A stretch of DNA of 35,992 bases from Allobosea sp. 12-68-7 (GTDB lineage: Bacteria; Pseudomonadota; Alphaproteobacteria; Rhizobiales; Beijerinckiaceae), in assembly GCA_002279705.1 (NCBI GenBank), contig NCCO01000024.1, positions 1 through 35,992 of the forward strand, written 5' to 3'. Position 1 is the stretch's first letter, and each line of letters opens with the position of its first letter. Made by a program: the position numbers and the translations under genes. Below the pieces are notes generated by a model. The model was given only the letters and a program-made list of their open reading frames with translations, was not told the origin of the DNA and searched no databases. Shown piece after piece: positions 31,056-35,278 of the stretch.

Positions 31056-32231
31056 ATGAGCGACACGCTAATCGCCCCGCCAACCGCCGCCCTGCGTGGC
31101 GAGGCGCCGCTGGCTCCCGCAGAGGCCGCCCAGGGCTGGCTCAAGCTCTCGCCGATCAACCGGCGCCGGCTCGACAATTTCAAGGCCAACCGGCGCGGCT
31201 GGTGGTCGCTCTGGATCTTCCTGACACTGTTCGTGCTGTCGCTTTTCGCCGAGTTCCTGGCCAACGACCGCCCGCTGATCGTCCGTTACAAGGGCGAGTG
31301 GCTGTTCCCGGTGGCGGTCAACTATCCCGAAGAGAAGTTCGGCGGCTTTCTCGCGACCACCGACTATCGCGACCCTGTCATCGCCAAGGAGATCGGCGCC
31401 AACGGTTTCGCGGTCTGGCCGCCGATCCGCTACAGCTACCGCACGCATAACCTCGATCTGCCGGTGCCGGCGCCCGCGCCGCCGACCTGGATGCTCCGGG
31501 ACGAGCAGTGCAAGGGCGTCGCGCAGCGGACAGGCGGCACGGGCTGCCGCGGCCTCGAATGGAACTGGCTCGGCACCGACGACCAGGGCCGCGACGTCGT
31601 CGCCCGGCTGATTTACGGCTTCCGCATCTCGATCCTGTTCGGGCTGATCCTGTGCGGGATATCCTCGGTGATCGGCATCGCGGCCGGCGCCATCCAGGGC
31701 TATTTCGGCGGCTGGACCGACCTGATCTTCCAGCGCGTGATCGAGATCTGGACCTCGATCCCGGCGCTCTACCTGCTGATCATCGTCGCGGCGATCATCA
31801 CGCCGAGCTTCTTCGTGCTGCTCGGCATCCTGCTCTTGTTCTCCTGGGTCGCGCTGGTCGGCGTGGTCCGGGCCGAGTTCCTGAGGGCGCGCAACTTCGA
31901 ATATGTCCGGGCGGCGCGGGCGCTCGGGCTCTCCGACCGAGCTATCATGGTCAAGCATCTGCTGCCCAATGCGATGGTCGCGACGCTGACCTTCCTGCCC
32001 TTCATTCTGAACGGCTCGATCACGACCCTGACTTCGCTCGACTTCCTCGGCTTCGGCCTCCCGCCGGGTTCGCCCTCGCTGGGCGAGCTTCTGGCGCAGG
32101 GCAAATCGAACCTGCAGGCCCCCTGGCTCGGTCTCTCGGGCTTCGTCGTGATCGCGCTGATGCTGTCGCTGCTGATCTTCATCGGCGAGGCGGTGCGGGA
32201 TGCGTTCGACCCGCGGAAGACGTTCGCATGA
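31056..32231 (+). CDS. yejE: peptide ABC transporter permease YejE
   Basis: This 391-residue second permease subunit has a short cytoplasmic N-terminus with [20 protein letters not shown], one helix (about residues 48-66), a long periplasmic loop including the YejE-typical [19 protein letters not shown], and the core permease domain from [20 protein letters not shown] onwards. The EAA-type loop is [26 protein letters not shown] precedes the ATG. The stop overlaps the yejF ATG as ATGA. Confidence 0.94.
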
Positions 32232-33382
32232 CCCCCTCCCCCCTCCTCTCCGTCCAAGATCTCTCCGTCGCCTTCCGCCAGGGCGGGCGCGAGACGCTGG
32301 CCGTCGATCGTGTCTCCTTCGACCTCGCCCGGGGCGAGACGCTCGCCATCGTCGGCGAGTCGGGCTCGGGCAAGTCGGTCACGGCGCTGTCGATCCTCAA
32401 GCTGCTGAACTATCCGTCCGCGCATCATCCCTCCGGCAAGGTGCTGTTCGAGGGGCAGGACCTGATCGCGGCCGATGAGGACGCGATGCGCAAGGTGCGC
32501 GGCAACGACATCACCATGGTGTTCCAGGAGCCGATGACCTCGCTCAACCCGCTGCACACGATCCAGCGGCAGATCGGCGAGATCCTCGAGCTTCACAAGG
32601 GTCTGCGGGGCGAGGCCGCACGGACCCGCACGCTCGAGTTGCTGGAACTGGTCGGCATTCGCGATGCCGCAAGCCGGCTCGATGCCTATCCGCACCAGCT
32701 CTCCGGCGGCCAGCGCCAGCGCGTGATGATCGCCATGGCCCTCGCCAACGAACCGCATCTCCTGATCGCCGACGAGCCGACCACGGCGCTCGACGTCACC
32801 GTTCAGGCGCAGATCCTGAAGCTGCTCAAGGAGCTCCAGGAGCGGCTCGGCATGGCGATGCTGTTCATCACCCATGATCTCGGCATCGTCCGGCGCATCG
32901 CCGACCGGGTCTGCGTGATGCTGAAGGGCCAGATCGTCGAGCAGGGGCCTGTGGCGGAGATCTTCGGCAACCCGCAGCACCCCTACACCCAGCGCCTTCT
33001 GGCGGCCGAGCCCAAGGGCCGTCCTGCCCCGGTTCCCGACGATGCCGCGACGCTGGTCGAGGCGGGGCCGATCAAGGTCTGGTTCCCGATCAAGACCGGC
33101 TTCCTGCGCAAGACGACCGGCCATTTGAAGGCGGTCGACGGCATCTCGGTGAAGGTCCGCGCGGGGGAGACACTCGGCGTGGTCGGCGAATCCGGCTCCG
33201 GCAAGACGACGCTGGGCCTCGCCCTTCTCAGGCTGATCTCATCGGAGGGGCCGATCGTCTTTCTCGGCGACCGGATCGACGGGCTGTCGAGTGCCCAGGT
33301 CAGGCCGAAGCGCAAGGACCTGCAGGTCGTCTTCCAGGACCCCTATGGCTCGCTGTCCCCGCGCATGTCGGTGGCGGAGATC
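32228..33382 (+). pseudogene. yejF: peptide ABC transporter ATP-binding protein YejF, 3' end replaced by carB
   Basis: Residues 1-385 of the open frame are YejF. The first nucleotide-binding domain is complete: Walker A GESGSGKS 43-50, Q-loop Gln100, signature LSGGQ 158-162, Walker B LLIADE 178-183, switch His216. The second domain has Walker A GESGSGKT (320-327) and the Q-loop ([13 protein letters not shown], Gln370). The frame then leaves YejF at SVAEI and continues as CarB. Signature, Walker B and switch histidine of the second domain, about 150 residues of a roughly 540-residue protein, are absent. There is no stop at the join. As written the ATPase could not work normally. Confidence 0.9.
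33371..33382. other. yejF/carB junction
   Basis: The bases GTGGCGGAGATC read as VAEI in both contexts: YejF-type proteins continue SPRMSVAEI with their own sequence, and CarB proteins have an EIH segment before a DPWF motif. The switch from one gene to the other falls in or next to this stretch, so at least GAGATC is plausibly shared between the two source sequences. Such microhomology fits an assembly join or illegitimate recombination. Confidence 0.75.
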
Positions 33383-35278
33383 CACGAGGCCTGCCGCTTC
33401 GACCCCTGGTTCATCCGGGAGATCGAGAAGATCGTCCAGGCCGAGCAGACGGTGAAGGCGGAGGGCCTGCCGAAGACCGCCGACGGTTTTCGCGCGCTGA
33501 AGGCGCTCGGCTTTGCCGACAAGCGCCTGGCGACGCTGACGGGCAGGACGGAAGCGCAGGTCTTTGCCGCGCGCGATGCGCTCGGCGTGCATGCCGTGTT
33601 CAAGCGCATCGACACCTGCGCGGCCGAATTCGCCTCCGACACGCCCTACATGTATTCCACCTACGAAGGCGGCTTCGGCGCGCCCGCCTGCGAATCCCGC
33701 CCGACGAGCCGGCAGAAGATCATCATCCTCGGCGGCGGGCCGAACCGGATCGGCCAGGGCATCGAGTTCGACTATTGCTGCGTCCATGCCTGCTACGCGC
33801 TGCGTGACGCCGGCTACGAGACCATCATGGTCAACTGCAATCCGGAGACGGTCTCCACCGACTACGACACCTCCGACCGCCTGTATTTCGAGCCGTTGAC
33901 GGCGGAGGACGTGCTGGCGATCTGCCGCAAGGAACAGGAATCCGGCGAGCTGCTGGGCTGCATCGTGCAGTATGGCGGCCAGACCCCGCTGAAGCTGTCC
34001 CAGGCCCTGCACAAGGCCGGCATCCCCATCCTCGGCACTTCGGCGGAAGCCATCGACATCGCCGAGGATCGCGAGCGTTTCCAACTGCTGCTGAAATCGC
34101 TGGGCCTGAAGCAGCCGCAGAACGGCATTGCCCGCGACCTGGAAGAAGCCCTCGTCGAGGCCGAGCGGATCGGCTACCCGGTGGTGGTGCGCCCGTCCTA
34201 CGTCCTCGGCGGCCGCGCGATGGAGATCGCCTATACCAGGGAACAGCTCCGCCGCTTCGGCGCGGAAGCGGTGAAGGTATCGGGCGAGAATCCGATCCTG
34301 ATCGACCAGTACCTGGCGGACGCCATCGAGGTCGATGTGGACTGCATCGCGGATGAGACGGGCGATGTCTATGTCGCCGGCGTCATGGAGCATATCGAGG
34401 AAGCCGGCATCCATTCCGGCGACAGCGCCTGCTCCCTGCCCCCCTATTCCCTGCCGCCCGCCATCATCACGGAGCTGAAGGCGGAGACCGAGGCGATGGC
34501 CAAGGCGCTGAAGGTCAAGGGCCTGATGAACGTGCAGTATGCGGTGAAGGACGGCGAGATCTTTGTCCTCGAGGTGAATCCGCGCGCGTCCCGCACCGTC
34601 CCCTTCGTCGCCAAGGCCACGGGCGTCGCCGTCGCCAAGATCGGTGCGCTGGTCATGGCCGGCGCCCATCTGAGGAAGTTCGGGCTGGACGACACCGCCG
34701 TCTCCCGCCACGTCGCGGTGAAGGAAGCCGTCTTCCCCTTCAACCGCTTCCCCAATGTGGACGTGATCCTGGGGCCGGAGATGAAGTCGACGGGGGAGGT
34801 GATGGGCCTCGACCTGTCCTTCGAGCGGGCCTTCCTGAAGTCCCAGATGGGCGCCGGGGTGAAGCTGCCGGAAGCCGGCACCGTCTTCCTGTCCGTCAAG
34901 GATGGCGACAAGGCCGGCGCGGTGACCCTGGCGCGGCGGCTGATCGAGATGGGCTTCCGCATCCTGGCCACCCGCGGCACCGCCGCCCGGCTGCGCGAGG
35001 TGGGGCTGGATTGCGCCGTGGTCAACAAGGTGGCGGAAGGCCGGCCGCATTGCGTGGATGCGATCAAGTCCGATGCCATCCAGCTGGTGATCAACACCGC
35101 CAGCGGCGGGCAGAGCGTGGCGGACAGCTTCGATATCCGCCGCAGCGCCCTGACGCACGGCGTCCCGCATTACACGACGCTGGCGGGCGCCCGGGCGGCG
35201 GTGCACGCCATCGCGGCCTTGAAGGGCGGAACCCTTGATGTAGCGCCGCTGCAGGCCTATTTTGCGCATTCATTCTGA
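33383..35278 (+). pseudogene. carB: carbamoyl-phosphate synthase large subunit, C-terminal 631 residues
   Basis: From [18 protein letters not shown] onward the frame is CarB. It holds the rest of the oligomerisation domain ([20 protein letters not shown]), the second ATP-grasp half that phosphorylates carbamate (starting [20 protein letters not shown], with [47 protein letters not shown] and [20 protein letters not shown]), and the C-terminal MGS-like allosteric domain (about the last 130 residues, [14 protein letters not shown]). The first half, about 430-440 residues with the bicarbonate-phosphorylating ATP site, is missing, so this copy cannot make carbamoyl phosphate. It ends normally. 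TCC becomes the main serine codon, about 18 TCC to 4 TCG by hand count. Confidence 0.9.

Follow-up and report, generated by a model that had tools for sequence, protein, structure and literature searches.

A YejF–CarB open frame at the end of an Allobosea contig is probably an assembly chimera of two bacterial genomes

The window analysed here, a stretch of 35992 bases, is an entire contig (C171) of the Allobosea sp. 12-68-7 assembly (312 contigs, 4.57 Mb, 92.26% complete and 2.45% contaminated), the organism of which we refer to as the host. Towards its 3′-end the contig carries the genes of an ABC importer, namely a gene for a family 5 solute-binding protein, then two permease genes and an ATPase gene whose first bases lie within the end of the second permease gene. 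For a comparable region of a plasmid record, the annotation of a permease reads ‘microcin C ABC transporter permease YejB’, and the remaining yej names that we apply to the transporter genes of the window (a yejABEF operon) are presumed. The ATPase gene opens a stop-free frame of 1016 codons on the forward strand (32228-35278), in which 385 residues of YejF are followed by 631 residues of CarB, the large subunit of carbamoyl-phosphate synthase. This in-frame combination, described in an initial annotation of the sequence, is borne out by the translation, by Pfam and by protein alignments. Pfam places ABC_tran in two stretches of the frame, the better at residues 27-186, and then CPSase_L_D3 (379-438), CPSase_L_D1 (495-610), CPSase_L_D2 (614-817) and MGS (898-983). 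At the protein level, residues 1-385 are identical at 378 of 385 positions to the intact YejF (543 aa) of G009, a genome of the host's genus, while residues 386-1016 are identical at all 631 positions to residues 451-1081 of the intact CarB of G216, a genome of the Belnapia rosea family.

Complete domains are not found on both sides of the join. The first part (32228-33382, forward strand) resembles a YejF-type peptide importer ATPase in its residues 1-385 and in the solute-binding and permease genes upstream, but the join truncates it, and the frame is without residues 386-543 of the G009 protein, the counterpart of which lies on another contig, C139. The second part (33383-35278, forward strand) resembles CarB over residues 451-1081, from the oligomerisation domain to the MGS domain, but is without CarB residues 1-450, which we take to be the first ATP-grasp half. 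The fusion occurs in none of 20 relatives, and no listed match (E <= 1e-100) covers most of both parts; the largest overruns of the join among these matches are residues 6-414 in G017 (29 past residue 385) and 347-1012 in G018 (39 before residue 386). A genuine gene fusion was rejected as a reading of the frame, as none of the 20 relatives shows it and both parts are cut within domains. Judged from these comparisons of sequence, the 32228-35278 frame is almost certainly not a gene but an artefact of joined genomes.

The left-hand source is the host itself. Over positions 1-33382 of the window (forward strand) the contig follows G009 (its contig C2) in collinear blocks of 93-98% identity, interrupted by five stretches of 54 to 834 bases that do not align. 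The last of these blocks (29956-33382, 96.0% identity) stops at 33382, the very base at which the initial annotation had ended yejF. The gene is intact in G009, where it has 543 codons, and all 12 same-genus genomes searched show a yejF match of 88-98% that ends at residue 385, together with a separate carB match; in one of them, G004, the yejF match begins only at residue 87.

The right-hand source is a different organism. The tail of the contig (33363-35992, forward strand) aligns with G216 (C76:28472-31101) without a gap and with three mismatches, that is, 2627 of 2630 bases identical (99.89%); because the window is the whole contig, this foreign tail reaches the contig end. In G216 the same sequence forms the 3′ part of an intact carB of 1081 codons, followed by greA, and in the window too a greA gene lies 3′ of the carB part and within the 99.89% block (35436-35909, forward strand; Pfam GreA_GreB_N and GreA_GreB). 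The search in the Belnapia rosea family covered 299 genomes, 287 scored and 12 unscored, and 265 of the 287 matched at E <= 1e-150. Among the matches listed, the next best to the tail is G252 at 88%, and others of the family stand at 72-83%. Plasmid records gave 43 matches to the tail, the best-covering among the 20 listed being at 71.2%; two of the 43 lie in the 80-90% band, outside those listed. The reading of the contig as a chimera of two genomes, proposed in the initial annotation, is thereby supported, with a close relative found for each source (G009 on the left and G216 on the right). Tetranucleotide composition gave the split no support and counts against a chimera: with a G216 reference of about 15 kb, the tail lies nearer to the host part (distance 0.234) than to G216 (0.282), the neighbouring stretch 30773-33382 being at 0.201 from the host part and 0.387 from G216.

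The switch between the two organisms is sharp, with G009 followed to 33382 at 96% and G216 followed from 33363 at 99.89%. The matches overlap in a stretch of 20 bases, GCATGTCGGTGGCGGAGATC (33363-33382, forward strand), which is matched by both sources and contains the join. A short sequence common to both genes had been anticipated at this place; the stretch matched from both sides is 20 bases long rather than the 6-12 first suggested. It encodes MSVAEI in YejF and in CarB alike, and the join is in frame for this reason. Both carB of G216 and yejF of G010, a genome of the host's genus, contain the stretch without a mismatch, and their flanks differ on both sides of it; seven further same-genus genomes, G009 among them, deviate from it at one base in yejF, and the remaining four same-genus genomes show no match at up to one mismatch. 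A comparison of 17 kb from G009 with 18 kb from G216 gave 16 shared exact words of 15 bases, two of 18 and no exact 20-mer. The host bases at the join are read from the chimeric contig alone, and a T at 33373 in the host yejF, as in G009, would shrink the exact overlap to about 10 bases, which would count against a join made by an assembler. As a separate matter, G216 has a yej-like region of its own (C65:30539-33818), 69-70% identical to that of the window, in which the yejF-like gene has, at the equivalent position, a version of the 20-base stretch with one mismatch.

The 3′ part of yejF that is missing from the window, sought elsewhere in the assembly as the initial annotation had advised, was found at the start of contig C139. 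There the remainder of the gene begins at position 45, 59 G009 bases past the break, and is followed by the same next gene as in G009; further on, about 2.1 kb of G009 are missing before the match resumes. Positions 1-44 of C139 have no match to G009, and the first 40 bases are absent, within three mismatches, both from 14 other genomes that include the donor relatives G216 and G252 and from a class-wide sample of 384 further genomes. Both contig ends at the yejF break thus look wrong, carrying either foreign or unmatched sequence, and the start of C139 may itself be a second faulty join at this break. A single insert of G216-like DNA in yejF was rejected as well, because one such insert fails to explain both sides when the C139 start does not match G216.

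These observations bear on whether the hybrid could have arisen in a living cell, by a very recent illegitimate recombination that put foreign carB–greA DNA into the host yejF. The open frame would fit such an event, as would a second, native carB in the genome (below), and an identity of 99.89% suits a very recent transfer as well as it suits a chimera. We nevertheless consider it very improbable, given that the yejF remainder on C139 still adjoins its normal next gene only 59 G009 bases past the break, that the first 40 bases of C139 are absent from G216 within three mismatches, that the 18 kb of G216 around the tail yielded nothing further near-identical in the host assembly beyond the 2630 bases, and that the 20 relatives are all without the fusion. 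The corresponding biological scenario, in which recombination through the short shared sequence would yield a translated YejF–CarB hybrid alongside the retained native carB of the strain, seems to us just as improbable.

The native carB lies on contig C60 as an intact frame of 1120 codons, with a greA match downstream. The carB part of the chimera shares 64-67% protein identity with it. A separate intact carB had been named in the initial annotation among the findings that would speak for a genuine fusion; one does exist, but it does not by itself show a fusion, since it is the native gene, at 64-67% protein identity, while the chimeric part is 99.89% identical to another organism. The 5′ part of the foreign carB, which had also been expected somewhere in the assembly, was not found there, the sole match being the native gene on C60 at 75% DNA identity. 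The same native genes bear on the direction in which the similarity to G216 should be read. Near-identity by itself does not tell which record is the source, and one might suppose that G216 is the faulty assembly, contaminated with a carB–greA segment that belongs to the organism of the window. We give this next to no credence: that organism already has its own carB and greA match on C60, as does G009 at one place, and the DNA of the carB part is 75% and 71% identical to carB of G009, as against 88% to G252 and 72-83% to other members of the Belnapia rosea family among the matches listed.

Taken together, the comparisons make it very probable that contig C171 is an inter-species assembly chimera of the host and a bacterium close to G216, a case built chiefly on the matches to two sources, on the native carB and on the continuation of yejF on C139. 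We envisage that the host and a G216-like organism were present in one sample, and that the host yejF and the G216-like carB share, or nearly share, the 20-base stretch; the exact 20 bases would then belong to the host's own yejF. At this stretch an assembler could have left the host path, entered carB and greA of the other organism and run on to the contig end. The place of the join would be a poorly resolved, thinly covered stretch of yejF in which the assembler took wrong branches. If so, the fusion protein would not exist, and both organisms would most likely have an ordinary yejF and an ordinary carB.

That an assembler made the join is what we infer, and the other contigs offer a hint of its kind. 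In a comparison of 18 ends of 10 contigs, one pair (C25 and C173) shares 20-mers: their first 99 bases are exactly the same, after which they diverge while remaining similar to base 413. Such a 99-base start can be a leftover of de Bruijn graph assembly with a final k near 99-100, although, given the similarity to base 413, it may instead be a repeat. IDBA-UD by default begins at k=20 and ends at k=100; the first k of MEGAHIT is 21. A node of 20 bases may then be enough for IDBA-UD, and may be one base short for MEGAHIT with its start at k=21, the latter counting against the proposed join.

A chimera of the same two organisms might also predate assembly, having formed while the library was being prepared, whether by ligation, by PCR template switching or by whole-genome amplification. 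For template switching, which does not need a perfect match, a short common sequence at the join is equally suitable, and the end of C139 near the same spot is likewise unmatched. We regard this origin as unlikely, if clearly less so than recombination in the host, for the chimeric molecules would need to outnumber those that carry the true junction at this place, whereas a graph assembler, at which the shared 99-base start hints, can make such a join without them.

Assembly chimeras, as we take C171 to be, have precedents. Excerpts of the GUNC paper (PMC8201837) describe misassembly that joins fragments of several sources into one contig as a known error, and also rate misassemblies as relatively rare compared with mis-binning, which counts against a chimera here. 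C171 is like the chimeric contigs of those excerpts in that two sources are wrongly joined, in this case within genes and with the foreign piece at the contig end, but it differs in that relatives close to both sources could be identified, as could the overlap of their matches. In a benchmark with Illumina reads, the number of chimeric contigs per genome is reported as 22.15 for megahit and 2.63 for SPAdes.

The biological interest of the fusion is low, and the relevance of the case is one of data quality only: the last 2.6 kb of the contig come from another organism, and annotation of this tail would give a false fusion protein together with a false second carB and a false second greA. Checks applied to whole contigs may miss the chimera, since host sequence makes up about 93% of C171.

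Within the host part, a segment of 778 bases (29178-29955) that is missing from G009 lies in the yej operon, preceded by the solute-binding gene (27311-29179) and followed by the first permease gene (29957-31054). It codes for two proteins, one with a nucleotidyltransferase domain (29228-29518) and one that is HepT-like (29515-29880); the two genes are likely to be a toxin–antitoxin pair, presumably MntA/HepT.
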